From Solirubrobacteraceae bacterium (lineage in GTDB: Bacteria; Actinomycetota; Thermoleophilia; Solirubrobacterales; Solirubrobacteraceae): 64,000 bases of DNA. Position numbers and translations under genes: made by a program. The stretch covers positions 1 through 64,000 of the forward strand of contig JAJCYD010000007.1 in the NCBI GenBank assembly GCA_029263125.1. The letters run 5' to 3'. The notes under the pieces are model-generated. The model did not search any database and had not been told where the DNA came from. It saw nothing but the letters and a program-made list of their open reading frames with translations. Numbering within the stretch: position 1 is the stretch's first letter; every line of letters begins with the position of its first letter. This document shows, piece after piece, positions 20,127 through 46,971 of the stretch.

Positions 20127-20386
20127 GGGCGCTGGCGAGGATCGCGCAGGCGCCGATCGTGCTGTATCAGCGCGTGATCTCTCCGGCGCTTCCCAGGCGT
20201 TGCCGCTACGAGCCGACCTGCTCGTCGTATGCGGTTCGGGCGCTCGGGCAGTTCGGCATACTTCGCGGCTCGGTGCTGGCGACCTGGCGCCTGCTGCGCT
20301 GCAACCCGTTCAGCCACGGTGGCTATGACCCGGTGGAGGCGCAGCGGCTCTTTGCCCCACGGTCGTCGCCCGGCCCCACCCCATGA
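20123..20386 (+). CDS. yidD: Membrane protein insertion efficiency factor YidD
   Basis: An 87-residue protein that assists YidC-dependent membrane protein insertion. It shows the family core: IVLYQRVISPALPRRCRYEP followed by TCSSYA and RCNPFSHGGYDPV. ATG 20123 overlaps the rnpA stop and the stop overlaps the yidC start (ATGA), so translation of all three genes is coupled. The N-terminal helix probably associates with the membrane surface. Confidence 0.95.
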   Translation: MRALARIAQAPIVLYQRVISPALPRRCRYEPTCSSYAVRALGQFGILRGSVLATWRLLRCNPFSHGGYDPVEAQRLFAPRSSPGPTP

Positions 20387-21456
20387 TCTCTTCAGCTTCC
20401 ACAGCTTTCGTCCTCGCGCTCTTTGCGCCGATCCAGATCATCGTCGATCTGCTGCATCCGGTGCTGCTGTTCTTCCACGACAGCGTCGGCGTCGGCTGGG
20501 GAACGTCGATCGTGCTGCTGACCGTCGTTGTGCGCGCCATGTTGGCGCCCCTGACGGTCAAGCAGTTCAAGTCGATGCAGGCGATGGTCCGCGTTGCGCC
20601 GCAGCTCAAGGAGCTGCAGACGAAGTACAAGGACGACAAGCAGCGCCAGCAGCAGGAGGTCATGAAGTTCTACTCGGAGAACAAGATCAATCCGTTCGCC
20701 TCGTGCCTGCCGCTGGTGGCGCAGATGCCGTTCTTCATCGGGCTCTTCTACCTCCTGCAGAGCGACCTTCGCGACGACATCTGCGGTCAGGCGGCGAAGG
20801 TCTGCGGCGAGGTCAGCGGCGCCCAGAGCGGCGCCGAGCAGTTCCTCTTCATCCCCGACCTGACCGACAAGGCGTCGGGCTGGGTGCTGGCCGTGCTGAT
20901 CGTCATGTACATCGGCTCACAGCTGCTGTCGAGCCTGCTCACGCCGTCCACGGCCGATCGCAACCAGCGGATGCTGATGTACGGACTGCCGTTCGTCTTC
21001 ATCTTCTTCGTCATCAACTTCCCCGCCGGCCTGATCGTGTACTGGATCACGACGAACCTCTGGACCGTCGGACAGGGCTACATCCTGCGCAAGCGCATGG
21101 GTCCGATGGTGGCCCCCAAGACCGAGCCGGCGCTTGCCGGGATCCCCGGTTCGGGGTCTTCCGGAGGTGGAGGAGGGTTCATGGCGCGGCTGTCGGCGGC
21201 GACCGGCGCCGGCAAGCTCGATTCGAAGCCCAGCGACAACGGCACGTCCGCAGGCTCGAAGTCCAAGACCTCGGCGAGCGAGAAGGACCGCACGCCGGCA
21301 AAGGCCGGCGCCGGGTCGACCGCGGGAGGGGCCCGCTCGCGCGGCGCTTCGAAGGCCAAGGAGCCCAGCAAGAGCTCGTCGCCCAAGCCCGCGCGCAGTG
21401 GCCCGCCGCCTCCGTCGCCGCGCAAGAAGAAGAAGCGCTCGGGTCGGCGGCGCTGA
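20383..21456 (+). CDS. yidC: Membrane protein insertase YidC
   Basis: Inserts and folds inner membrane proteins alone or with SecYEG. 357 residues with five expected membrane segments: near the N-terminus, after the coiled region KELQTKYKDDKQRQQQEVM, around PLVAQMPFFIGLFYLLQ, WVLAVLIVMYIGSQLL and PFVFIFFVINFPAGLIVYWI. The conserved Arg (VVVRAMLAPLTVKQ) in the hydrophilic groove is present. The C-terminal ~110 residues are a long Lys/Ser/Gly/Pro-rich disordered tail ending in a KKKKRSGRRR run, probably for ribosome contact. The stop overlaps the jag start by 1 nt. Confidence 0.95.
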   Translation: MISSASTAFVLALFAPIQIIVDLLHPVLLFFHDSVGVGWGTSIVLLTVVVRAMLAPLTVKQFKSMQAMVRVAPQLKELQTKYKDDKQRQQQEVMKFYSENKINPFASCLPLVAQMPFFIGLFYLLQSDLRDDICGQAAKVCGEVSGAQSGAEQFLFIPDLTDKASGWVLAVLIVMYIGSQLLSSLLTPSTADRNQRMLMYGLPFVFIFFVINFPAGLIVYWITTNLWTVGQGYILRKRMGPMVAPKTEPALAGIPGSGSSGGGGGFMARLSAATGAGKLDSKPSDNGTSAGSKSKTSASEKDRTPAKAGAGSTAGGARSRGASKAKEPSKSSSPKPARSGPPPPSPRKKKKRSGRRR

Positions 21457-21917
21457 TGGCCGACAACGGTCAGGTCGAGGCGGTCGAGGAGCTCCTGGCC
21501 AAGGTCGTGGGCGCGCTGGATCTGGATGCGACGATCGCAGTGGAGGATGACGGCGAGATCGTGACGGGAACCGTCAGCGGCGATGATCTGGGGTTGTTCA
21601 TCGGCCGACACGGACAGACGATCGATGCGGTGCAGCATCTCGCTCAACGCGTCGCTCGTGCGCGCACCGGTGAGTCGCGCCGGATCGTCATCGACGCCGA
21701 GGGCTATCGCGACCGGCGCGCGGGAATGCTCCAGCGCCAGGCCGACCAGGCGACCGACGACGCGCTGCGCTTCGGGCGACCCGTGGCGATGGACGCGATG
21801 ACGGCCAGCGAGCGGCGGCTGGTGCACGAGTACCTCCGTGACAGCTCCGAGGTGCAGACGTACTCCGAGGGCGACGAACCCGGTCGCCATCTCGTGGTCG
21901 CTCCGCTGCAGGAGTAG
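21456..21917 (+). CDS. jag: RNA-binding protein Jag/KhpB (KH and R3H domains)
   Basis: A 153-residue cytoplasmic protein. The KH domain carries GLFIGRHGQTIDAVQHLAQ (GxxG loop), and the R3H domain has RQADQATDDALRFGRPVAMD followed by TASERRLVHEYL. ATG 21456 overlaps the yidC stop. The N-terminal Jag_N domain seen in Firmicutes is mostly missing, as in other actinobacterial homologues. Jag/KhpB proteins bind RNA and influence cell division and elongation; which RNAs are bound here is unknown. Confidence 0.93.
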   Translation: MADNGQVEAVEELLAKVVGALDLDATIAVEDDGEIVTGTVSGDDLGLFIGRHGQTIDAVQHLAQRVARARTGESRRIVIDAEGYRDRRAGMLQRQADQATDDALRFGRPVAMDAMTASERRLVHEYLRDSSEVQTYSEGDEPGRHLVVAPLQE

Positions 21918-21971
21918 CTGGCCGGCTCACCCGGCGTTTCACGTTTTTGTCCCCGGTGTAACAATCGACCG

Positions 21972-22331
21972 ATGCTGTCGGACACCGAACGCGGCCTGAT
22001 CGCCGGCATCCTCCTGAGCGAGGGGTCCTTCGGTGGCGACGGCAAGCAACCGCATGTCGTCCTGCGCAAGCATGTGCGCCACGAGTCGCTGATGCGCTGG
22101 CTCGTCGCGCGCTTCCCGCGCTCGCGTCTGTACGGCCCCTACCACCACGGTCAGCGTTCCTACTTCCAATGGGTCGCGCGCGGAGCGGCACTCGTGCAGG
22201 ACGTCCTGCCGATCCTCGAGGAGCTCGTCGTCGCAGAGGTGGACGCTCACGCGGCGGCGCGCCTGGCGACGATGCGCGAACGCTATGCCCCGTACATCGA
22301 GCGCGTGAAGGCGCGCGAGGACGCACGATGA
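21972..22331 (+). CDS. Small single-motif LAGLIDADG-like protein
   Basis: A 119-residue protein between jag and rsmG. Residues 8-20 read GLIAGILLSEGSF, a good match to a LAGLIDADG helix with its acidic residue, followed by a strand (KQPHVVLRKHVRHESLMRWL), then RLYGPYHHGQRSYFQWVARG and a helical C-terminus. This fits one monomeric unit of a LAGLIDADG homing endonuclease without intein or intron. Its stop overlaps rsmG by 4 nt, so it is an integrated member of the operon and may be a domesticated DNA- or RNA-binding protein. Whether it cuts DNA cannot be told. ATG 21972; a TAACAAT box just upstream may be a promoter. Confidence 0.75.
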   Translation: MLSDTERGLIAGILLSEGSFGGDGKQPHVVLRKHVRHESLMRWLVARFPRSRLYGPYHHGQRSYFQWVARGAALVQDVLPILEELVVAEVDAHAAARLATMRERYAPYIERVKAREDAR

Positions 22332-23041
22332 GCCCGCGCCCGCGCACCCAGATGACGGCGCTGGAGGAGCGATTTCAGCTCGTGCCCGCCGCGGCCCCGG
22401 CGCTTGGCACGCTGCTTGGACTGCTCGAGACCGACCCCTTCGCGCCGACGACCGTCGTCGATGCGGCCGTGGCGATCGACGCGCACGTCGCGGACGCCCT
22501 CGTTGCGCTGGAGCTCGATCCGATCCGCAGCGCTCACCGCATCGCTGACATCGGGTCGGGCGCGGGAGTTCCCGGGCTTGTCCTGGCCGCGGCGCTCCCG
22601 GACGCTCGCGTGGACCTCGTGGAGAGCAACGGGAGGAAGTGCGCGTTCATCGAAGGGGCCGCCGACGCCATGGGCCTGACGAACGTCGACGTCGTGCGCG
22701 CCCGGGCCGAGGAGTGGAGCGCGGGGGTGGGCGTCATCGACGCCGTCACCGTGCGTGCGGTCGCGCCGCTCAACGTGCTCGTCGAGTACGCGTCGCCGCT
22801 GCTGGTGCTCGGAGGCGCGCTCGTCGCGTGGAAGGGCCAGCGCGATGCCGAGGAGGAGGCAGATGGCGCCGCGGCCGCGGCGGCGACGGGTCTATCGCCC
22901 GTCGAGGTCCGGCCCGTGCATCCATGGGACGGGGCCGAACATCTGCATCTGCACGTCTATGCGAAGGTCGCTTCGACCCCCAAGCGCTATCCGCGACGCG
23001 CAGGGATGGCCAGCAAACGGCCGCTACGAGCGGCGAGCTGA
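22328..23041 (+). CDS. rsmG: 16S rRNA (guanine527-N7)-methyltransferase RsmG
   Basis: Methylates G527 (E. coli numbering) of 16S rRNA using SAM. 237 residues starting at ATG 22328. The Rossmann motif I is IADIGSGAGVPGLVLAAAL, followed by VDLVESNGRKCAFIEGAA and the conserved VRARAEEW and VTVRAVAPLNVLVEYA segments. The C-terminus is basic (TPKRYPRRAGMASKRPL), as in the family. Gene order jag-rsmG-parA-parB is standard around bacterial origins. Loss of RsmG elsewhere gives low-level streptomycin resistance. Confidence 0.94.
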   Translation: MSPRPRTQMTALEERFQLVPAAAPALGTLLGLLETDPFAPTTVVDAAVAIDAHVADALVALELDPIRSAHRIADIGSGAGVPGLVLAAALPDARVDLVESNGRKCAFIEGAADAMGLTNVDVVRARAEEWSAGVGVIDAVTVRAVAPLNVLVEYASPLLVLGGALVAWKGQRDAEEEADGAAAAAATGLSPVEVRPVHPWDGAEHLHLHVYAKVASTPKRYPRRAGMASKRPLRAAS

Positions 23042-23052
23042 ACCGCACGACG

Positions 23053-23072
23053 TCGGTTCGGTCGCGAACCGA
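23053..23072. promoter_or_regulatory. Inverted repeat upstream of parA
   Basis: Eight-base arms TCGGTTCG and CGAACCGA are separated by 4 nt in the 70-bp gap between rsmG and parA. It could be an operator for parAB control or the stem of a weak terminator. It does not match the parS consensus. Confidence 0.45.
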
Positions 23073-23096
23073 TCACGATCTCGGCATCGTGCACGG

Positions 23097-23102
23097 TACG
23101 GT
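23097..23102 (+). promoter_or_regulatory. -10-like box before parA
   Basis: TACGGT lies 9 nt before ATG 23112 without a ribosome-binding site, suggesting a leaderless parAB transcript. Confidence 0.4.
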
Positions 23103-23111
23103 TGCAGCTCG

Positions 23112-23879
23112 ATGGGCACCGTCTACGCGATAGCCAACCAGAAGGGCGGAGTCGGCAAGACGACGACGGCGGTCAACGTCGCGGCATGCATCGCCGAAGC
23201 CGGCTTTGCGACGCTGCTGATCGACATCGATCCGCAGGCCAACGCCACGCTCGGCCTCGGATCACAGAAGGACGTCGAGCCGAACATCTATGACGTGCTC
23301 GCCGGCGACGTGCCGATCGAGGACGCCGAACGCGACACGTCGATCGAGCTGCTCAAGCTCGTGCCGGCGCACCCCGACCTCGCGGGGGCGAACGTCGAGC
23401 TGCCGCGCGAGGCGGGTTCTGAGACACGCCTGCGCGAGGCGCTGCACGGCGTCCGTGAGCGCTTCGACTACGTGCTGCTGGACTGCCCGCCGTCGCTCGG
23501 CCCGCTGACCGTCAACGCCCTCGTCGCCGCGGACCGGGTGATCGTCCCGGTGCAGACGGAGTACTTCGCGCTGGAGGGGTTGGCAGGTCTGCTGGACACG
23601 CTCGCGCTCATCCAGCGCGAGCTGAACCCGCGCCTGACGATCGCGGGCATGCTGTTGACGATGCACGACGGCCGCACGCGGCTCGCCCGCGACGTCGAGC
23701 GCGAGGTCCGCGAACACTTCCCGGACCTCGTCTTCGACACGGTGATCCCGCGCAACGTGCGCGTCGGGGAGGCGCCGAGCTACGGGCTCCCGGTGACCCA
23801 TCACGATCCGCACTGCAGTGGTTCGGACGCGTACTTCGAGCTTGCCAAGGAAGTCGTGCGAGCCGGAGCCGGCCCGTGA
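23112..23879 (+). CDS. parA: Chromosome partitioning ATPase ParA (Soj)
   Basis: Walker-type ATPase that positions the origin region with ParB. 255 residues. The deviant Walker A is NQKGGVGKTTTAVNVAA, with the signature Lys near its start; motif A' is DYVLLDCPPSLGPLTVNAL, and the segment LIDIDPQANATLGLG is conserved. The C-terminal motif VRVGEAPSYGLPVTHHDPHC is typical. ATG 23112 gives the canonical MGTVYAIANQKGG start. The stop overlaps the parB GTG start by 4 nt. Confidence 0.96.
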   Translation: MGTVYAIANQKGGVGKTTTAVNVAACIAEAGFATLLIDIDPQANATLGLGSQKDVEPNIYDVLAGDVPIEDAERDTSIELLKLVPAHPDLAGANVELPREAGSETRLREALHGVRERFDYVLLDCPPSLGPLTVNALVAADRVIVPVQTEYFALEGLAGLLDTLALIQRELNPRLTIAGMLLTMHDGRTRLARDVEREVREHFPDLVFDTVIPRNVRVGEAPSYGLPVTHHDPHCSGSDAYFELAKEVVRAGAGP

Positions 23880-24772
23880 GCGGGCCGCGACGGGGCATGG
23901 GCCGGGGGCTCGGCGCGATCCTCGCCGTCTCCGGCGAGCGCGACGGCGTGGCCGCCGATGACCTGCGCTCGCTGCCGGTGGACCTGATCGTCCCCAACCC
24001 CAAGCAGCCACGGCGGTCCTTCGACGATGTGGCGCTGCAGGCGCTGGCCGGATCCCTGCGCGACCGCGGCGTCCTGCAGCCCGTGCTCGTGCGACCCGTT
24101 GCGGGCGGCACCTACGAGCTCGTCGCCGGCGAGCGCCGCTGGCGCGCGGCGCGGCTCGCGGGCCTGGAGACGATCCCGGCGCTCGTGCGCGACCGCGACG
24201 ATGCCGACGCGCTGCAGGCCGCGCTGATCGAGAACATGGCCCGCGAGGACCTCAATCCCGTCGAGGAGGCGCGAGCGTGCGCGGCGCTGGTGGAGGAGCT
24301 GGGGCTGACGCGGGAGGTCGTCGGACTGCGCGTCGGTCGCAGCCGCGTCGCCGTGTCGAACCTGCTGCGCCTGCTGGACCTGCCCGACGAGGTCATCGAG
24401 CTGCTTGAGCGCGGCGAGCTGTCCGAGGGCCATGGCCGAGCCCTGCTGCTGGCCTCCGACCACGCCGACCGTCGCCGGCTGGCGCGGTCGGCGGTCGCCG
24501 AGGCCTGGTCGGTGCGCACGCTCGAGACACGCGCTCGCGGGGCCAACGAGCCTGATGCCACGGCCGTGCCGACGCGCTCAGGCCGTGCCCGCGACGTGCA
24601 TCCCGACCAGGAAGCGGCCGCCGCGCAGATCGCCGACGCGCTCGGCGGAGCGTTGGGTCGTGAGGTCAAGGTCAAGCCGGGGTCAAGCGGCTATCGCGTC
24701 GAGCTGTCCTTCGAGGATCCGGAGGAAGCGCTGGCCCTGGCCCGCCGCCTGCGTCCTCGCGCGGCGGCGTGA
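23876..24772 (+). CDS. parB: Chromosome partitioning protein ParB
   Basis: CTP-dependent DNA clamp that loads at parS sites. 298 residues. The N-terminus GMGRGLGAIL is the ParA-interacting segment; the ParB/Srx domain includes IVPNPKQPRRSFDD and the nucleotide-binding ELVAGERRWRAARLAG and ALIENMAREDLNPVEEA. The central helix-turn-helix is VVGLRVGRSRVAVSNLLRLL and the C-terminal region is the dimerisation domain. GTG start overlapping parA. No perfect parS site was seen nearby. Confidence 0.95.
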   Translation: MSGPRRGMGRGLGAILAVSGERDGVAADDLRSLPVDLIVPNPKQPRRSFDDVALQALAGSLRDRGVLQPVLVRPVAGGTYELVAGERRWRAARLAGLETIPALVRDRDDADALQAALIENMAREDLNPVEEARACAALVEELGLTREVVGLRVGRSRVAVSNLLRLLDLPDEVIELLERGELSEGHGRALLLASDHADRRRLARSAVAEAWSVRTLETRARGANEPDATAVPTRSGRARDVHPDQEAAAAQIADALGGALGREVKVKPGSSGYRVELSFEDPEEALALARRLRPRAAA

Positions 24773-31766: not shown

Positions 31767-31772
31767 ACCGTA
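31767..31772 (-). promoter_or_regulatory. -10 box of the BTAD regulator gene
   Basis: Reading leftwards TACGGT lies 7 nt before GTG 31759. It overlaps CCGTAACGG (31768-31776), a partial copy of the 22-bp motif, placing possible autoregulation directly on the promoter. Confidence 0.45.
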
Positions 31773-31780
31773 ACGGTCGC

Positions 31781-31802
31781 GCCGTAACGATTCTCAGACG
31801 GG
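31781..31802 (+). promoter_or_regulatory. 22-bp shared motif, copy 1
   Basis: GCCGTAACGATT, four bases, then GACGGG; 20 of 22 positions match copy 2. It lies 48 nt before ATG 31851, between the divergent BTAD regulator and the membrane protein gene. A partial copy lies exactly 14 bp to the left. Confidence 0.65.
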
Positions 31803-31850
31803 GTGCGGTGAGGCTGCGCGCATCGGCAACCTCCCGAAGGAGCTCAGACC

Positions 31851-32492
31851 ATGAACGCGATCTCGACCGATCCCCGCGCCGCCGGGCAGGGGCACCTGCA
31901 TGGCACCGATGTCGCGAGCCCGCCGCTGACACGCCTGCTCGGCGGCGCGTTCGTCGCCGCCCCGCTGCTGATCCTCGCAAGCTCAGTCGCCTGGGCGGCA
32001 GGATCGGACGGCGCGCGCGGCGTGCTGCAGTTCTACGGCGCGGCGGTGTTCGTCCTCGTGCTCGTCACGCTGGCGAGCGCGCTCGCGCCGCAGCTGCCGC
32101 GCGCCGCCGCCGTGATCGCGGTGGCCGGCGTGCTCGGATATGTCGCCGGGGCCGCCTTTGCGATCGACGAGCTCCACGTGGCGTTGCAGGATGGCGTCCA
32201 CCTCGCCGACGGCGACGCCGGGATCGCCGGCGCGCTGGTGACGAACGTCCCCGGCCTGCTCGGTCCGGTCGCGTGGGTTGCGATCGGCGTCGGATTGCGG
32301 CGCACCGGTCTGGCACCCGGACCCGGCGCGATGCTGATCCTCGCCGGCGTGCTGTTTCCCGTCTCGCGGATCGGCGAGATCGCAGCGCTGGCGGTCGTCG
32401 ACGACATGATCTTCCTCGCCGCGCTCGTTCCGCTGGGCTGGGCGATTGCTCAGGGCCGTGGCAGGCTCGCCCAGCGCGCCGGGCGGATCTGA
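31851..32492 (+). CDS. Multi-pass membrane protein
   Basis: A 213-residue integral membrane protein. AAGGAG lies 9 nt before ATG 31851. About six hydrophobic segments can be seen, for example LLGGAFVAAPLLILASSVAW, GAAVFVLVLVTLASALA, AAAVIAVAGVLGYVAGAAFA, LGPVAWVAIGVGL, AMLILAGVLFPVSRIGEIA and MIFLAALVPLGWAIA. No transporter or enzyme motif is recognised. It is the first gene to the right of the BTAD regulator and carries the 22-bp motif in its promoter region, so it is probably a target of that regulator. Function unknown. Confidence 0.75.
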   Translation: MNAISTDPRAAGQGHLHGTDVASPPLTRLLGGAFVAAPLLILASSVAWAAGSDGARGVLQFYGAAVFVLVLVTLASALAPQLPRAAAVIAVAGVLGYVAGAAFAIDELHVALQDGVHLADGDAGIAGALVTNVPGLLGPVAWVAIGVGLRRTGLAPGPGAMLILAGVLFPVSRIGEIAALAVVDDMIFLAALVPLGWAIAQGRGRLAQRAGRI

Positions 32493-32557
32493 GGACCGCG
32501 GGAGCCCCGGCGGCGCCAGCGAGACGTGCGCCGGGGCGACCGCGGCGAGGCAGCCGC

Positions 32558-32579
32558 GCCGTAACGATTCGCGGACGGG
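32558..32579 (+). promoter_or_regulatory. 22-bp shared motif, copy 2
   Basis: GCCGTAACGATT, then CGCG, then GACGGG, located 53 nt before ATG 32633 of the cupin gene. Confidence 0.65.
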
Positions 32580-32632
32580 TCATGGGGATCGTCGACAGTG
32601 CAATGAGTCCCGACCTCGAAGGAGTTGACGAG

Positions 32633-33160
32633 ATGAGCATCAGTGCGACACGCGCCCCAGGGTTCACGCGCAGTGCCGACCGCGACGATGCGGAATCGAG
32701 GTGGTACCTCGGTCAGGTGATGACGTATCTGCTGACGTCCGCGGAGAGCGCGGGCGGTCCCTGCGTCATCGAGGCGACCGTCCCCGCTGGATCGGGGCCG
32801 CCCGAGCACGTGCATGCGCACGAGGACGAGATGGTGTTCGTCCTCGCCGGCAGCGCGACCTTCTACCTGGAGGGCGAGGCCCGGAAGGTGGGTGCGGGGT
32901 CGTTCGTCTGGCTGCCGCGCGGGCATCGCCACACGTTCGCCTTCGATGAGCAGTCGCGGGTGCTCTGCGTGGTGACTCCGGGCGCGGCCGTGGAGGGTGT
33001 CTTCCGCGAGTCCTCGGTGCCAGCCGAGTGCCACGACCTGCCGCCCGCGGACGCCCCGATGGAGGACGTGCAGCTCGTGGTCAAGCGCTTCGTCGAGACC
33101 GGCTGCTCGATCACCGGGCCGCCGCCAGGCGGCGCCGCGACCGACGATGCGGCTGTCTGA
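32633..33160 (+). CDS. Cupin-domain protein
   Basis: A 175-residue soluble protein with a single cupin barrel. Motif 1 is PPEHVHAHEDEMVFVLAG (HxH with Glu and the spacing typical of metal-binding cupins) and motif 2 is WLPRGHRHTFAF. Substrate unknown: such cupins range from dioxygenases to sugar-binding proteins. AAGGAG lies 9 nt upstream of ATG 32633. It carries a 22-bp motif in its upstream region and therefore probably belongs to the regulon of the BTAD protein. The C-terminal ~50 residues are outside the cupin core and end in a Gly/Pro/Ala-rich tail. Confidence 0.85.
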   Translation: MSISATRAPGFTRSADRDDAESRWYLGQVMTYLLTSAESAGGPCVIEATVPAGSGPPEHVHAHEDEMVFVLAGSATFYLEGEARKVGAGSFVWLPRGHRHTFAFDEQSRVLCVVTPGAAVEGVFRESSVPAECHDLPPADAPMEDVQLVVKRFVETGCSITGPPPGGAATDDAAV

Positions 33161-33307
33161 CGAGCTCGGATGCGCCGGCGGCTCGGGTTGTGTCGCTGAC
33201 CGCGCTCGTGCAGGCTGCGAGCACATGAGCCCGCTCGACGCCGATTCGTGCCAGCCGATCGGATCCTGGCGCCGGCCTCCGCGCGCACGCGTGACGGGGC
33301 CGCGAGG

Positions 33308-34501
33308 ATGAGCGTGCGCCGGCTGGCCTGGGGACTGGCGGCGCTGGCGCTCGTGATGCTGATCGGCGGCGAGATCGTCCTGCTCGCAACGGCGGAAGCT
33401 CGCTATGACGCCAAGGTGTTCGCGCAGGCGGTGCTCGAGGGCGTGCTGGTGGCGGTCGTCGCGGCGTTCGCGGTGATCGGGGCGCTGGTGATCTCGCGCC
33501 GGTCGCATCACGCGATCGGTTGGATCTGCGTGGCGGCGGGGTTGGCGGCCGGCCTGGCCAACGTGGCCGAGGCGTACGTGAACCTGCGTCTGCGCGGCGG
33601 CTCGGATCCCGGCCCGCTCGCAGGTGTTGCCGCCGTGTACGGGGAGGCGAGCTGGCTGGGATTCGTGGTCGTCCCGATCACGTTCGTGATGTTGCTGTTT
33701 CCCGACGGGCGCCTACCGTCGCCGCGCTGGCGCCGAGTTGCCTGGGCTGCGGGCGTCGGCATCGGCGTGACGTTCCTGTCAGTCGCACTGGCCGAGCTGC
33801 CCGATCCTCCGTCGCCGCTACTGGAGAACCCGTTCTCGGTGGATGGGTCGCTGAGCGATGTCCTGTCGGTCGTCGGCCAGCTGCTGATCGCGATCGGCGT
33901 GTTCGGATCCGTGACCGCCCTCGTCGTGCGCTACCGGCGCGCGCCGCACCGCCAGCGCCTGCAGATCAAGTGGCTCGCGCTGGCGGGGGCCGTCATCGTG
34001 GTCGTTGTTCCAATCGACGCGGCGCTCGGCGATTCGCTGGGTGACTGGGCCTACGCGGCGACGCTGCTCAGCCTCACGGGCCTGCCGGTAGCGATCGGGA
34101 TCGCGATCCTGCGACACCGTCTGTACGACATCGACGTCGTCATCAACCGGGCGCTCGTCTACTTCACGCTGACCGCGTCTGCCGCGGCGTCCTACGTGGC
34201 CGGGGTGCTGGTGCTGCAGCTCGCGCTGAGCCCGCTGACGCGCAGCTCGGATCTCGCGATCGCGGGCTCGACGCTCGCCGTCGCGGCGCTCTTTCAGCCC
34301 GCCCGGCGCCGGATCCAGGCGCTCGTCGATCGACGCTTCTTCCGGCGCAGGTACGACGCGCAGCGAACGCTTGAGCGCTTCGGGGCGCAACTGCGCGACG
34401 AGGTCGATCTCGACGAGCTCGGCGACGAGCTGTGCGCGGTGGTGGCCGAGACGATGGCGCCCGAGCACGTCACATTGTGGCTGCGCGAGGGCGTTCGATG
34501 A
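33308..34501 (+). CDS. Multi-pass membrane sensor protein ending in a partial GAF-like region
   Basis: A 397-residue protein starting at ATG 33308. About eight hydrophobic segments fill residues 1-310 (WGLAALALVMLIGGEIVLLA, VVAAFAVIGALVIS, WICVAAGLAAGLANVA, LGFVVVPITFVMLLFPDG and others). The segment RHRLYDIDVVINRALVY is typical of actinobacterial membrane sensor kinases. The C-terminus (RYDAQRTLERFGAQLRDEVD then LGDELCAVVAETMAPEHVTL) looks like the linker and first part of a GAF domain, then stops. No kinase domain follows. The rest of the expected GAF appears in the next gene, so the two may be halves of a split ancestral protein. Confidence 0.78.
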   Translation: MSVRRLAWGLAALALVMLIGGEIVLLATAEARYDAKVFAQAVLEGVLVAVVAAFAVIGALVISRRSHHAIGWICVAAGLAAGLANVAEAYVNLRLRGGSDPGPLAGVAAVYGEASWLGFVVVPITFVMLLFPDGRLPSPRWRRVAWAAGVGIGVTFLSVALAELPDPPSPLLENPFSVDGSLSDVLSVVGQLLIAIGVFGSVTALVVRYRRAPHRQRLQIKWLALAGAVIVVVVPIDAALGDSLGDWAYAATLLSLTGLPVAIGIAILRHRLYDIDVVINRALVYFTLTASAAASYVAGVLVLQLALSPLTRSSDLAIAGSTLAVAALFQPARRRIQALVDRRFFRRRYDAQRTLERFGAQLRDEVDLDELGDELCAVVAETMAPEHVTLWLREGVR

Positions 34502-34536
34502 ACGCGCTCTGCGCCGACGTAGCCGTAGACGTCGCC

Positions 34537-34558
34537 GTCGTAACGCGTCCCGGACGCC
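34537..34558 (+). promoter_or_regulatory. 22-bp shared motif, copy 3 (degenerate)
   Basis: GTCGTAACG, then a variable centre, then CGGACG; 16 of 22 positions match copy 2. It lies 22 nt before ATG 34581 in the junction between the membrane sensor and phosphatase genes. Confidence 0.45.
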
Positions 34559-34580
34559 TCGCTCCTACAACGGACGCTGC

Positions 34581-36224
34581 ATGACCGCGCTGACGAGAAG
34601 CGTCCTTCGCAAGCTGGCTCCGCGCCGCCGGGCGACCGCAGCCGACGCCCCGATCGGCCCGCCCGCGGCAGCCGCGGCCGCCGCACAGCCCGCGCGCGCG
34701 CCCGTCGAGATCGCCCCGGACGATCCGCTGCTGGCCTACTTGCAGGCGGCGGGCGAGGCCGTCGACGTCGAGGCGCTCGAGCTCGACTCGCCGGCGCTGC
34801 GCGAGCTGCGGGCGGCCAGGGTGCGGATCGCGGTGCCGCTCGTCGCGCAGGGCGAGCTGATCGGCGTCCTGAGCCTCGGCGCGCGCCGCTCCGAGCAGGA
34901 CTACTCCTCCGACGACCGCCGTCTGCTGGACAATCTCGCCGCGCGGGCGGCGCCGGCGCTGCGCGTCGGCCAGCTCGTGCGCGAGCAGCAGGCCGAGGCC
35001 GCGACGCGCCAGCGCTTCGAGCAGGAGCTCGAGATCGCGCGCCTGATCCAGCAGCACTTCCTGCCCAAGCAGCTGCCCGACCTCGGCGGCTGGCAGCTGG
35101 CGGCCTTCTATCGCCCGGCGCGCGAGGTCGGCGGCGACTTCTACGACGTCATCCCGCTGCCCGACGGGCGCGTCGGGCTCGTCGTCGGCGACGTGACCGA
35201 CAAGGGCGTGCCGGCCGCGCTCGTGATGTCGGCGACGCGGACGATCCTGCGCGCGACCGCGACGCGGCTCGTCGAGCCCGGCACGGTGCTCGAGCACGTC
35301 AACGAGCATCTGTGCCCCGACATGCCCGAGAAGATGTTCGTCACCTGCCTGTACGGGGTGCTCGAGCCGGCGACGGGCCTGCTGCGCTTCGCCAACGCCG
35401 GCCACGACGTGCCCTACGTGCGGACCGCCGGCGGGGTCGTCGAGCTGCGCGCGCGCGGGATGCCGCTGGGCCTGTTGACGGGCATGGCCTACGAGGAGAA
35501 GGAGATGGTGCTCGCGCCCGGCGACAGCGTGCTGCTGCACTCCGACGGGATCGTCGAGGCGCACGCGCCTGACCGTGAGATGTACGGCTTCCCGCGCCTG
35601 AAGGCGACCGTCGGCCGCGGGCCCGGCGGCCAGGAGCTGATCGACGTCGTGCTCGCCGATCTGGATGCCTTCACCGGCCCCGGCGCCGAGCAGGAGGACG
35701 ACATCACGATGCTGTCGCTGCAGCGAACCGCGACCGCAGCGGCGGCGCCCGCGGCCGCTTCGGCCGGCGATGGCGACGCGCAGGTGCTGGCCGAGTTCGA
35801 GCTGCCAAGCGTGCCGGGGAACGAGAGGCAGGCGCTCGCCGGGGTGGCCGTGGCCGTCGCCGGGCTGGCGCTGGCGCCGGCGCAGCTGGAGAGGCTGAAG
35901 ACCGCCGTCGCCGAGGCGACGATGAACGCGATCGAGCACGGCAACGAGAACGTCGCCGCGCGCGCGGTCGCGATCCGCGTGCTGCACCAGCCTGCACGCG
36001 CGCGCCTGCGCGTGCAGGTCACCGACGGCAGTCACGGCGGTGAGCTGCCGGCGCCCGAGGTGCCGGACATCGACGCCAAGCTCGCCGGCACGCAGCTTCC
36101 GCGCGGCTGGGGCCTGTTGCTGATCGAGAGCATGGTCGACGAGACGCGAGTGTCGAGCGGCCCGCAGGGGCACACGCTCGAGCTCGTCCTATACCTGGAA
36201 GGGGATCCGGATGACGACGCGTGA
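34581..36224 (+). CDS. GAF-PP2C phosphatase fused to an RsbW-like HATPase (RsbU-RsbW fusion)
   Basis: A 547-residue protein starting at ATG 34581. After a low-complexity N-terminus, residues ~45-140 form part of a GAF domain (VRIAVPLVAQGELIGVLSLG then DYSSDDRRLLDNLAARAAPA). The SpoIIE/RsbU PP2C domain (~150-385) has IQQHFLPKQLPD, REVGGDFYDVIPL and VGDVTDKGVPAALVMSATR with the metal-binding Asp residues, then LLHSDGIVEAH and the final EQEDDITML. The C-terminal ~140 residues form a GHKL anti-sigma kinase: TAVAEATMNAIEHGNEN and GWGLLLIESMVDE. It should dephosphorylate STAS antagonists and also bind or phosphorylate them. Two STAS genes follow directly. Confidence 0.92.
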   Translation: MTALTRSVLRKLAPRRRATAADAPIGPPAAAAAAAQPARAPVEIAPDDPLLAYLQAAGEAVDVEALELDSPALRELRAARVRIAVPLVAQGELIGVLSLGARRSEQDYSSDDRRLLDNLAARAAPALRVGQLVREQQAEAATRQRFEQELEIARLIQQHFLPKQLPDLGGWQLAAFYRPAREVGGDFYDVIPLPDGRVGLVVGDVTDKGVPAALVMSATRTILRATATRLVEPGTVLEHVNEHLCPDMPEKMFVTCLYGVLEPATGLLRFANAGHDVPYVRTAGGVVELRARGMPLGLLTGMAYEEKEMVLAPGDSVLLHSDGIVEAHAPDREMYGFPRLKATVGRGPGGQELIDVVLADLDAFTGPGAEQEDDITMLSLQRTATAAAAPAAASAGDGDAQVLAEFELPSVPGNERQALAGVAVAVAGLALAPAQLERLKTAVAEATMNAIEHGNENVAARAVAIRVLHQPARARLRVQVTDGSHGGELPAPEVPDIDAKLAGTQLPRGWGLLLIESMVDETRVSSGPQGHTLELVLYLEGDPDDDA

Positions 36225-36576
36225 GCTGCGGGTGACGATCTCCGACCGAGGCCCGACCGCGGTCATCCATCTGGCCGGCGAGATCGATCGCGCGGCCGAC
36301 GAGCTGCTCGGGCGTGCTTATGACGACGCGACGCGCGGCGGCGCGCGCGCGGTCGTCCTGAACTTCGAGCACGTCGAGTACATCAACAGCACGGGCATCG
36401 CCCTGCTCGTCGGGCTGCTCGCCCAGGCGCGTGGGCAGTCGGTGCGGATCAGCGCATGCGGGCTGTCGGACCACTACCGCGACATCTTCGAGATCACGCG
36501 CCTGGCCGACTTCATGACGATCGCCGACAGCGAGGACGGCGCCGTCGCGGGCGCGGGTGCGAGCACGGATGCATGA
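36211..36576 (+). CDS. STAS-domain anti-sigma factor antagonist (RsbV-like)
   Basis: A 121-residue STAS domain. The strand-loop VEYINSTGIALLVGLLAQAR contains the Ser-Thr (about residue 58-59) that is phosphorylated by anti-sigma kinases and dephosphorylated by the upstream PP2C protein. ATG 36211 overlaps the phosphatase gene by 14 nt, so both are co-translated. Expected to sequester an RsbW-type kinase, freeing its sigma factor; the sigma factor is not in this window. Confidence 0.9.
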   Translation: MTTRELRVTISDRGPTAVIHLAGEIDRAADELLGRAYDDATRGGARAVVLNFEHVEYINSTGIALLVGLLAQARGQSVRISACGLSDHYRDIFEITRLADFMTIADSEDGAVAGAGASTDA

Positions 36577-36931
36577 GTCAGCGACGGCCGCCGACGTCCG
36601 CGAGGCCGCGCCGGGCGTCTGCGTCATCGACATCACAGGAGACGTGACGGCGGCCAGCGAGGAGGCCCTCGTCGCCGCCTACGATGACGCCAGCGCGCGC
36701 GGTGCCCGCGCGATCGTGCTGAGCTTCGCCGGGCTTGCGTACATGAACTCCGGCGGCATCGGCCTGATCGTGATGCTGCTCGTGCGCGCCCAGCGCGCCG
36801 ATCAGCGCGTGCTCGCCTACGGCCTGTCAGGCCACTACCGCCAGATCTTCGAGCTGACGCGCCTCGACGAGGCCGTCGCCATCCACGACTCAGAGCAGGA
36901 CGCGCTGCGTGTCGCGAGCGCTATGGGATGA
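36569..36931 (+). CDS. Second STAS-domain anti-sigma factor antagonist
   Basis: A 120-residue STAS domain, ATG 36569 (GTG 36557 possible), overlapping the previous gene by 8 nt. The phosphorylation loop reads LAYMNSGGIGLIVMLLVRAQ: Ser is retained but the following Thr is Gly. It shares the C-terminal pattern GLSGHYRQIFELTRLDEAV with the first STAS protein, so the two are probably tandem duplicates. They may integrate into the same switch with different affinity. Confidence 0.88.
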   Translation: MHESATAADVREAAPGVCVIDITGDVTAASEEALVAAYDDASARGARAIVLSFAGLAYMNSGGIGLIVMLLVRAQRADQRVLAYGLSGHYRQIFELTRLDEAVAIHDSEQDALRVASAMG

Positions 36932-36993
36932 GCACCATGCCGACGACAATCTCCGGCGGCGCAGCCGCGGCCGAGCGCGCGGCGTTACCCGCC

Positions 36994-37015
36994 GCCGTAA
37001 CGATTGCCGGACGGC
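36994..37015 (+). promoter_or_regulatory. 22-bp shared motif, copy 4
   Basis: GCCGTAACGATT, then GCCG, then GACGGC, 19 of 22 matching copy 2, 78 nt before ATG 37094. CGTTAC (36983-36988) is an inverted half-copy 14 bp to the left, the same spacing as the partial copy next to copy 1. Confidence 0.6.
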
Positions 37016-37093
37016 TGGCGGCGATGTTCTCCTCCATCAGCCAACAGCGAGCGGCGGCCACGATCGTCGCCGCGATCGAATGAGGACACGGAC

Positions 37094-38071
37094 ATGACCC
37101 AGAAACACCGCAGCTCACAGGCCCCGGGCGACATCACGGCCCGGGCGCGGCCGACGACACGGGGACGCGGCGCGATCGGACGGCGGGTCGCGCTGGCGCT
37201 GGCGATCGTGATCGCGCCCGCCGGTCTCGCGGCCTGCGGCGAGGACGATGCGTCAAGCGATGCGGGCGGCGCACAGGCTGCGCCGACGCCGCTGGCGATC
37301 ACCACCTCCGCCGCGGACGCTGATCGGTTTACGACCACGGCGCCCGCAACGGTCAGCGGTGGCCTCGTCGAGCTGACCTTCACCAACGCCGACGAGAAGG
37401 CCACCCATGAGGCGCAGCTGGTCCGCATCGACGGCGACCACACGGCGCAGGACGCCGTCGAGGTCGTGACGGGCGACTCCGTCGCGATTCCGGACTGGTT
37501 TCACGCCGCCGGCGGCGCCGGCAGCACCGGGCCCGGCCAGACGGTGACGACGACGATGAACCTGCCTGCGGGCAGCTACGCGATGATCGACAACGACGCT
37601 CAGGAGGGACCCTCGAACTCCAGCCGCGGAGCGCTTGCCGAGTTCGAGGTCACGGCCGGCGACGACGGTGACCTGCCCGCCGCGACGGCGACGATCACGG
37701 CCGATACCGCGGACGGCGCCGAGCACGACAACAGCTTCGAGATCGAGGGCCTGAAGGTCGGTCCCAACCGCGTCAAGCTCGTCAACACGGGCGAGGAGGT
37801 GCACCACGCGGTGCTGTTCCCGATCCTGCCCGGCAAGACGCTCGCCGACGTCAAGAAGGCGTTCACCGAGGAGCGCCCGTCCGGACCGCCGCCGGTCGAC
37901 TTCGCCGGCGCCGCCGGGACCGCGGCGATCGACGGCGACAGCGAGCTTGTCACCGACCTCGTGCTGCGCAAGCCGGGTACGTATGCCGTCGTCTGCTTCC
38001 TGACCGATCGCGACGGCAAGGGCGAGCAGCATCTCGCGGAGGGGATGATCGAGAAGGTCGTCGTCAAGTAG
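37094..38071 (+). CDS. Secreted lipoprotein with cupredoxin-like domains
   Basis: A 325-residue exported lipoprotein. The N-terminus has a twin-Arg-rich basic region, a hydrophobic core VALALAIVIAPAGLAAC and a lipobox Cys (LAAC, residue 47). The mature part contains two beta-sandwich regions; TPLAITTSAADADRFTTT and NSFEIEGLKVGPNRVKLVNT start each one, and GEEVHHAVLFPILPG contains a His pair. The C-terminal phrase KPGTYAVVCFLTDRDGKGEQ with Cys resembles cupredoxin copper sites (Cys-x-His pattern is incomplete: no Met is seen). The 22-bp motif upstream links it to the BTAD regulon. Confidence 0.78.
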   Translation: MTQKHRSSQAPGDITARARPTTRGRGAIGRRVALALAIVIAPAGLAACGEDDASSDAGGAQAAPTPLAITTSAADADRFTTTAPATVSGGLVELTFTNADEKATHEAQLVRIDGDHTAQDAVEVVTGDSVAIPDWFHAAGGAGSTGPGQTVTTTMNLPAGSYAMIDNDAQEGPSNSSRGALAEFEVTAGDDGDLPAATATITADTADGAEHDNSFEIEGLKVGPNRVKLVNTGEEVHHAVLFPILPGKTLADVKKAFTEERPSGPPPVDFAGAAGTAAIDGDSELVTDLVLRKPGTYAVVCFLTDRDGKGEQHLAEGMIEKVVVK

Positions 38072-44888: not shown

Positions 44889-44894
44889 TATCGT
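44889..44894 (+). promoter_or_regulatory. -10 box, leaderless promoter of the pafBC gene
   Basis: TATCGT lies 7 nt before GTG 44902; no ribosome-binding site. It supports GTG 44902 rather than GTG 44893 as the start. Confidence 0.45.
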
Positions 44895-44901
44895 GTCCTC
44901 C

Positions 44902-46971
44902 GTGGCCAAGGACACGGAGAAGCTCATCCGCCAGCTCTCCCTGATCTCCTATCTCATGGCGGAGCGCAGGCCGGTGACGGCGCTGGAGATCCGCCGGGAT
45001 GTCGAGGGCTACAGCACGATGAACGCCGACGCCTTCGCCCGGCGCTTCTATGCCGACCGCTCCGAACTCGACTCGCTGGGAATCGTGCTGACCGTCGAGC
45101 GGCCTGTCGACGGGGTCGCCGAGCAGGAGAACTACTCGCTGCGCCCAGAGAACTTCCACCTGCCGGCGATCGCCTTCACCGACGGCGAGCTGGCCGCGCT
45201 GCAGACGGCGCTGTCGCTGCTGGACGGGGAGTTCGCCTACGCCGAGCCGCTGCGCCTCGCGCTCCAGCAGATCTCGTGGGGTCGGGCGAACCCGCTGCGC
45301 TCCCCGCAGCAGCGCTCGGTCGGGCTGGGCATCACCGCCTCGGCCGGCGGCCACGATCTCTCCCAGCGCCTCGCGAAGATCGAGACGGCGATCTTCCGCA
45401 ACAAGACGATCACCTTCGACTACTACACGATGGCGCGCGACGCGACCGGCACGCGCAAGGTCGATCCGTACCACCTGCTCTTCCAGGGCGGCCAGTTCTA
45501 CCTGCTCGGCCACTCCCACGAGCGCGGCGCCCTGCGCGTCTTTCGCCTGTCGCGGATCCAGGGCAAGGTCGCCTACGCGACGAAGTCTGAGCACGACTTC
45601 AAGGGCCGACCCGCGGACTTCGATCCGCGCGCCTACGCCAACCGTGCCGTGTGGCAGTTCGGCGACGCCGACGAGACCGCGGAGATCTGGGTGTCGGCGC
45701 GGATCGCGTGGCAGATCGAGCGCCACTTCGGCCACTTCGGCGAGGTCCGCCCGGCAGGTGCCGACCAGCCCGGCGACATCGTCTTCACGACGCGCTACGC
45801 CGACCGCCGCCAGCTCGCCGCGTGGGCGCTGCGCCTCGGCGAGCACGCCCGCGTGCTCGGCCCCCCCGAGCTCGAGCGCGAGCTCGCGGACCGCATCGAG
45901 CTGCTGCACGAGCGCCATCTCGAGCTCGAGCCTGCGCCGCCGGTCCTGACGCCAGCGCAGGAGCCCGCCGAGGTCGTCGCCGAGACCCCGGGCCGCCGCG
46001 CCGAGGCGGGGATCCGGCCCGAGCGCATCGCGCGGCTCGTGACGCTGGCGTCGATCCTGATCCAGGCCGGCGGCGCCGGCACGCGCCTGCGTGCGGCCGA
46101 GATCTGCGAGCGGATGCAGATCTCCGACGCCGAGCTGCGCGAGGACCTCAACGTCCTCAACGTCGTGAACTTCGGTGGCGGCTCCTACGTGCTCTACGCG
46201 GAGATCGACGACGACGGAGAGATCGAGGTCGATCCCGAGCCCTACTCGGACCACTTCGCGCGGCCCGCGCGCCTGCTGCCGGTCGAGGCCAAGGCGCTGA
46301 TCGCGGCGATCGACCTCATCGGCGAGCACCTGCCCGAGGGTTCGCTGGCCTCCACACGCGAGAAGATCGTCGAGGCACTGGGCGCCGACCCGATGGAGCA
46401 GGGCCTGCACGTCGCCAACGCCGGTGGCGACGACTCGGCGATCGCCCGCCTGGCGTCGGAGGCGATCATGCGCCGCCGCCTGCTGCGCCTGGACTACTAC
46501 AAGCCCAACGAGGACGAGTACTCGGTGCGCGTCGTCGAGCCCTACGCACTCGTCAACGGCCGCGAAGGGTGGTATGTCGCGTGCTTTGATCCCGACCGTG
46601 ACGCCGTGCGGCATTTCCGCCTTGATCGCATTCGCCAGGCAGCGGTGACCGACACGGAGTTCACCGCGCGCGCCGAGGTCGATCCCGCGGCCGAGGTCGA
46701 CGGATGGCTGCGCACCGGCGAGGTGCAGGCATCGCGGGTCGCGCGCGTCTGGGTGTCACCCGATCGGGCGCGTTGGGCACGCGAGGAGCGGCGCGTGGCC
46801 GCGGAGCTGCAGGACGGCTCGGTGATCGTCGAGCTGACGTTCAAGGGCATCGACTTCCTGGTCCGGGACGTCCTGGCAGAAGGTGGGGACGCCGTCGTGC
46901 TGGAGCCCGAAGACGCTCGCGCTGCCGTGCTGGCCACCGCTGCGCGCTTGCGCGCTCCGGCCATTCGCTAG
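44902..46971 (+). CDS. pafBC: Fused PafB-PafC WYL-domain transcriptional activator
   Basis: A 689-residue protein joining two winged-helix/WYL modules, encoded as separate adjacent genes in mycobacteria. Module 1: N-terminal winged helix (LIRQLSLISYLMAERRPVTA) and a WYL domain around FRNKTITFDYYTMARDATGT and VDPYHLLFQGGQFYLLGHSH. Module 2 begins after an acidic Pro/Ala linker with RIARLVTLASILIQAGGAGT and a WYL domain with RRLLRLDYYKPNEDEYSVRV and EPYALVNGREGWYVACFD. In mycobacteria PafBC activates the main LexA-independent DNA-damage response. The usual pafA/proteasome genes are not next to it here. Confidence 0.92.
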   Translation: MAKDTEKLIRQLSLISYLMAERRPVTALEIRRDVEGYSTMNADAFARRFYADRSELDSLGIVLTVERPVDGVAEQENYSLRPENFHLPAIAFTDGELAALQTALSLLDGEFAYAEPLRLALQQISWGRANPLRSPQQRSVGLGITASAGGHDLSQRLAKIETAIFRNKTITFDYYTMARDATGTRKVDPYHLLFQGGQFYLLGHSHERGALRVFRLSRIQGKVAYATKSEHDFKGRPADFDPRAYANRAVWQFGDADETAEIWVSARIAWQIERHFGHFGEVRPAGADQPGDIVFTTRYADRRQLAAWALRLGEHARVLGPPELERELADRIELLHERHLELEPAPPVLTPAQEPAEVVAETPGRRAEAGIRPERIARLVTLASILIQAGGAGTRLRAAEICERMQISDAELREDLNVLNVVNFGGGSYVLYAEIDDDGEIEVDPEPYSDHFARPARLLPVEAKALIAAIDLIGEHLPEGSLASTREKIVEALGADPMEQGLHVANAGGDDSAIARLASEAIMRRRLLRLDYYKPNEDEYSVRVVEPYALVNGREGWYVACFDPDRDAVRHFRLDRIRQAAVTDTEFTARAEVDPAAEVDGWLRTGEVQASRVARVWVSPDRARWAREERRVAAELQDGSVIVELTFKGIDFLVRDVLAEGGDAVVLEPEDARAAVLATAARLRAPAIR

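Follow-up and report, generated by a model that had tools for sequence, protein, structure and literature searches.

Are the four similar intergenic sequences that lie beside the gene of a BTAD-ATPase regulator in a Solirubrobacteraceae bacterium the operators of that regulator? They are found in a stretch of 64,000 nucleotides (nt) (assembly GCA_029263125.1, contig JAJCYD010000007.1, positions 1 to 64,000; hereafter the window). Soil Actinomycetota and Chloroflexota commonly have regulators of this type. To our knowledge, an operator or a regulon is known for hardly any of them outside Streptomyces, and the literature searched contained no counter-example. The sequences, termed boxes below, very probably define a regulon of four units under the adjacent regulator, an AfsR-like large SARP, with the shared motif as its predicted operator. 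Operator, recognition helix, promoter geometry and a conserved target set are obtained here from sequence alone, which makes the function of the whole subfamily directly testable.

Structure and distribution of the box

A preliminary description of the window had placed perfect copies of a 22-base-pair (bp) motif at 31781, 32558 and 36994 and a weaker copy at 34537, each 22-78 nt before a start codon. GCCGTAACGATTNNNNGACGG was read at the three positions with 0 mismatches (3 copies in the window vs 0.23 expected with up to 3 mismatches), and GTCGTAACGCGTCCCGGACGC was read at 34537. Distances from box end to start codon were measured as approximately 50, 55, 25 and 80 nt (starts 31851, 32633, 34581 and 37094), close to the range claimed. 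Additional half-sites 14 bp to the left of two copies were also recovered, as CCGTAACG in direct orientation at 31768 and as inverted CGTTAC at 36983; extra heptamers accompany the main box at other loci (L017, L025, L027, L030, L055, L058, L062). The sites of the proposed 22-bp motif, GTAACG...GACGG, were retained, and its unit was redefined as a direct repeat with an 11-bp period, which the supposedly weak copy (34539) matches well. Aligned sites from relatives gave the consensus Y-CGTAACG-N-T-N2-CGGRACG. Position -1 was C or T in 82/82 sites and position +8 was T in 73/82, neither of which was demanded by the search.

Spacing to a -10-like element was determined on 32 copies selected by CGTAACG alone. 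NANNNT was present exactly 9 bp after the repeat, counted from the second heptamer, in 15/32 copies. Among the 31 offsets compared, no other had more than 5. The spacing becomes 8 bp if the base following the heptamer is counted within the repeat. The direct repeats used by SARPs are separated by 11 or 22 bp, and 8 bp lie between the 3' repeat and the -10 (PMC10936776); the AfsR box extends from -40 to -19, and the -10 of afsS is CACTGT (PMC10936776; reviewed in PMC10972967). The 11-bp repeats placed in this way near a -10 closely match the geometry of SARP activators such as AfsR. GTAACG...GACGG was also considered as the -35 and -10 elements of an extracytoplasmic function (ECF) or sigma-70 promoter and was rejected, as the spacing is wrong and no sigma-70-like promoter was found.

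The whole 3.75-Mb genome (assembly approximately 95% complete) was scanned for the motif. Copies with 0-1 mismatch were limited to the three perfect window sites, and matches with 2 mismatches were no commoner than in a reversed control. A hold-out profile was built from 36 non-window sites, an earlier profile having included all four window sites. It placed these at genome ranks 1-4 (E 5.8e-4, 0.0017, 0.041 and 0.225; next match 0.308), so the regulon of this genome seems confined to the cluster; the scan did not return hundreds of places.

The four nearest homologues of the regulator found at first, all from Chloroflexota (40-50% identity), each carried CGTTACG 5' of the regulator start; in the window, CGTTACG lies 16 and 30 nt 5' of the regulator start codon. 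Further orthologues were collected by class, family and phylum searches and by a phosphatase search in the order (genomes G140, G142, G209, G217, G339, G351, G390, G393, G407, G417, G420, G431, G442, G452, G457, G468, G507, G517, G527, G556 and a few fragments). Upstream sequence was available for 24 orthologues (approximately 40-57% identity; Actinomycetota and Chloroflexota). CGTTACG was present at most 350 bp upstream in 23/24, as 32 copies with an orientation of 32:0. Dinucleotide shuffles gave a mean of 0.76 loci with CGTTACG and a maximum of 3, and none was found upstream of five paralogues or distant homologues (31-36% identity). A strict pattern of box plus -10 was then scanned against 45 whole genomes, comprising 23 carriers and 22 non-carriers of the regulator; many of the compared genomes are fragmented assemblies. 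The pattern occurred in 21/23 carriers (62 sites; reversed control 1) and in 0/22 non-carriers (control 2; Fisher p 7e-11). Within the order, singletons of the long motif with 1 mismatch seemed at first to be chance matches, but the G140 and G217 singletons proved to adjoin the regulator. The proposed tie between motif and BTAD-ATPase regulator is supported, as the box tracks the regulator gene across genomes and is conserved upstream of orthologues of both the regulator and the target genes. It is by such comparison that the predicted sites, their geometry, their restriction within the genome, their co-occurrence with the regulator and the conservation of their targets are shown.

The regulator and rival readings of the motif

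Pfam matches of the regulator were BTAD (5.7e-18), AAA_16 (2.1e-24) and TPR_12 (5.7e-16). Its architecture is that of a large SARP, with an N-terminal winged helix then BTAD, a central NTPase and C-terminal TPR. Residues 3-240 (the first 246 amino acids (aa) were used) align to EmbR (2fez, E 2.3e-6) and AfsR (8hvr) over the winged helix and BTAD; the AfsR TPR family NF053617 was matched weakly, far under its cut-off. The helix at the recognition position reads ALRRTLS in the orthologues, once AFRRTLS and once TLRRTLS, and NLRQALH, TVQVYIS or ALQVHVA in box-less paralogues (approximately 31% identity). Of the sequence evidence that the regulator would read the box, this co-variation of helix and box is the strongest. 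In two Chloroflexota proteins (L018, 1600-3039; L019, 2228-3664) winged helix and BTAD are joined straight to the TPR end and the box is kept; a regulator can thus carry the box without having the ATPase. The tree groups the window regulator with G217 and G209, from another family of the same order (support 100/100), apart from G140 and G142 of its own family. Genomes of the same genus have only a distant paralogue, or nothing. Such a pattern would be accounted for by horizontal transfer or by repeated loss.

We infer direct binding, activation rather than repression, autoregulation and a partner-switch output. In the proposed mechanism, the winged-helix/BTAD part would bind as a side-by-side dimer on both repeats of YCGTAACG-N3-YCGGRACG. 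The bound dimer would recruit RNA polymerase to a poor promoter in which the box replaces the -35 and the -10 NANNNT lies 9 bp downstream. Large SARPs activate through contacts to RNA polymerase and to region 4 of sigma. The AAA/TPR part would gate activation upon some signal, which the phosphatase/anti-sigma/STAS set would hand on to a partner. The four units under control would be a small membrane protein; a cupin with a membrane protein with multiple transmembrane segments (multi-TM); the GAF-PP2C-HATPase phosphatase together with both STAS proteins; and the lipoprotein of cupredoxin type.

Several observations weigh against this assignment. The phosphatase box scored E 0.225 in the hold-out scan, barely above the background of 0.308, and is statistically weak without comparative evidence. 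The orthologue of G527, for which the full upstream sequence is available, has no box, and the regulator of G540 has ALRRTLS yet no strict box (a profile match of E 0.003 exists). In pairwise comparison the regulator resembles AfsR weakly (E 9e-5). The Walker A motif of the window regulator, GEAGIGRSR (residue ~306), has R where K is found in every orthologue with a recognised motif (G-x-x-G-x-G-K-[ST]); the ATP switch may be altered, with possible loss or change of ATP use.

An alternative sigma factor (ECF- or sigma-B-like), perhaps released by the RsbU/RsbW/STAS switch, could use the motif as its promoter, the regulator being a bystander. The fixed spacing to the -10-like element and the phosphatase/anti-sigma/STAS operon among the targets fit this explanation, which is nevertheless very improbable. 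The sites follow the regulator gene across genomes (21/23 vs 0/22), which argues against a general alternative-sigma promoter, and boxes adjoin the regulator in L028, L025, L018 and L019, loci whose examined stretch yielded no phosphatase. The element is a direct repeat with an 11-bp period. Among the main genes of 23.9-47 kb, the part of the genome to which this search was confined, no sigma factor, cognate or otherwise, could be recognised.

It is likewise very improbable that the regulator binds the box and represses from the divergent region, mainly for autocontrol. It is on the target strand, and not on that of the regulator, that the box is followed by the -10-like element; many boxes stand before other genes, at a distance from the regulator; and an operator in place of the -35 fits activation (PMC10936776). 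Repression would accommodate the position of the box 16-30 nt before the regulator start, its location within approximately 200 nt in box-bearing orthologues and its single orientation. Chance or repeat-derived similarity of four intergenic regions in one cluster, which local duplication could have built, has a negligible probability: the downstream genes belong to unrelated families, box and regulator recur together in approximately 20 other species, and the co-occurrence and shuffle tests refute it. Activation by the adjacent SARP-type regulator is the reading followed below.

Predicted target genes and surroundings

Coordinates of the boxes, the regulator and the genes under the boxes are given in Table 1.

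Table 1. Boxes, regulator and predicted target genes in the window
Feature	Position	Strand	Remarks
Box 1, CGTAACG ATTC TCAGACG	31783..31800	+	11-bp direct repeat; hold-out profile E 0.0017 genome-wide
-10-like GAGGCT (NANNNT)	31810..31815	+	exactly 9 bp 3' of box 1; spacing conserved across loci
Box 2, CGTAACG ATTC GCGGACG	32560..32577	+	-10-like GATCGT at 32587-32592
Box 3, CGTAACG CGTC CCGGACG	34539..34556	+	variant; -10-like TACAAC at 34566-34571
Box 4, CGTAACG ATTG CCGGACG	36996..37013	+	-10-like GATGTT at 37023-37028; best site of the genome, E 5.8e-4
Extra CGTAACG heptamer	31769..31775	+	14 bp upstream of box 1, before regulator start
Inverted half-site CGTTAC	36983..36988	-	14 bp left of box 4
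Regulator, winged helix + BTAD + AAA_16 + TPR, 958 aa	28883..31759	-	GTG at 31768 also possible start
Membrane protein, 213 aa, first target	31851..32492	+	divergent from regulator; no Pfam match
Cupin-domain protein, 175 aa	32633..33160	+	Cupin_2 5.5e-14
Multi-TM membrane protein, 417 aa, ~10 long helices	33248..34501	+	AlphaFold2 (AF2) pLDDT 85
Phosphatase, partial GAF + SpoIIE/PP2C + RsbW-like HATPase, 547 aa	34581..36224	+	SpoIIE 5.3e-53; HATPase_c_2 5.7e-16
STAS protein 1, anti-sigma factor antagonist type	36211..36576	+	STAS 1.2e-13; TIGR00377 above cut-off
STAS protein 2	36557..36931	+	STAS 1e-11
Lipoprotein, two cupredoxin-like domains	37094..38071	+	AF2 + Foldseek: multicopper oxidases/Cu nitrite reductases, best E 2e-10

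The gene classes named in the preliminary description (membrane protein, cupin, phosphatase, cupredoxin-like lipoprotein) were upheld by Pfam or by AF2 and Foldseek where matches exist; a PDB fold search with the membrane protein gave no significant match. The multi-TM gene has no box of its own here and is probably read through from box 2. A PP2C phosphatase, a HATPase anti-sigma/kinase and a STAS antagonist, the components of an RsbU/RsbW/STAS switch, were identified with Pfam and NCBIfam. The lipoprotein keeps the type-1 copper ligand order H237, C301, H313, M318, invariant in 3 homologues, and its AF2 model is cupredoxin-like with a model confidence of only 68. A role in envelope or redox stress may reasonably be guessed from the targets (membrane proteins, cupredoxin lipoprotein, cupin, phosphatase/STAS switch).

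In other genomes, the genes most frequently under the box belong to the multi-TM family of 33248-34501, often as first gene and often in tandem arrays. The phosphatase and two STAS proteins stand under the box in the window and in G140, G142, G209, G217, G390, G407, G417, G420, G431, G468, G507, G517 and G556. The box lies approximately 22-34 nt before phosphatase orthologue starts in many genomes, in the same place as box 3, and nearly leaderless phosphatase mRNAs are expected because of this short distance. G209 and G407 have lipoprotein homologues under the box, and G517 (L147) has a different, unrelated cupin there. Synteny is closest in G209, with the order regulator (56%), box, lipoprotein, two membrane proteins, box, phosphatase, STAS, STAS. 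No biosynthetic cluster genes were seen among the first genes under the listed box sites; control of secondary-metabolite clusters is usual for large SARPs but does not strictly define them. Large multi-TM expansions, mostly with their own box and often near contig ends, were observed in G390 (12 sites), G404, G507 and others (loci L105-L120). In G351 (L028, 161-3607) an ABC-transporter/FtsX-type operon next to the regulator has two boxes on its strand, one preceding and one following the operon.

The GAF match of the phosphatase begins at profile position 36-37. The preceding multi-TM protein ends where GAF begins and the phosphatase starts inside GAF; when the window tail and the phosphatase were joined, the GAF profile was matched in full, starting at position 1. 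Compared with shuffled tails or with the phosphatase by itself, real tails raised the score by 2.4-6.9 bits in 5/6 species, a modest gain that was absent in one of the six. In none of the loci examined were membrane protein and phosphatase fused. A doubtful extension of these observations is a two-layer envelope signalling module in Actinomycetota and Chloroflexota, in which the SARP-type ATPase regulator would control the phosphatase/anti-sigma protein together with changeable membrane proteins whose tails complete the GAF domain, many inputs sharing one switch.

A YidC-like gene and a short LAGLIDADG-like open reading frame (21972-22331), both recognised by eye, and parB (Pfam) lie at 20383-24772. 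Together these suggest that the cluster is near the chromosome origin. A PafB/PafC-like WYL-domain protein of 692 aa is encoded at 44893-46971; it has two WYL stretches, apparently both halves fused.

Comparison with known systems

No report of the box, or of a SARP with a partner-switch operon, was found in the literature searched (open-licence papers only). The module has no counterpart there, and its large-SARP and partner-switch components are each known. With the assignment, as read from sequence, activation of the SARP type would reach beyond antibiotic pathways into membrane signalling and partner switching.

AfsR and other large SARPs of Streptomyces (PMC10936776, PMC10972967) share with the regulator the winged helix, BTAD, NTPase and TPR, and an 11-bp direct-repeat operator that is separated by approximately 8-9 bp from a poor -10 (CA-N3-T type). 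They differ in the box (CGTAACG/CGGRACG here, CGTTYATCG for the afs box) and the recognition helix, and in having NB-ARC in place of AAA_16. Membrane proteins and a phosphatase/STAS operon make up the present predicted regulon, in which no antibiotic cluster was seen, and the module occurs in uncharacterised Actinomycetota and Chloroflexota. The SARP-LAL regulators PimR, SanG and FilR also combine a SARP domain with a LAL-like ATPase and use direct repeats of heptamers with 4-nt spacers (PMC10972967), whereas their known members govern antibiotic pathways and have two or three heptamers per site. EmbR of Mycobacterium tuberculosis shares the winged helix-BTAD core and has an FHA domain where the regulator has AAA-TPR. 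The RsbU/RsbW/RsbV and SpoIIE/SpoIIAB/SpoIIAA systems likewise have a single operon that combines a PP2C phosphatase with an RsbW-like ATPase and with STAS proteins. In the window no sigma factor is seen nearby, phosphatase and kinase/anti-sigma are joined in one polypeptide, two STAS proteins are present, and the operon itself is under a SARP-type box.

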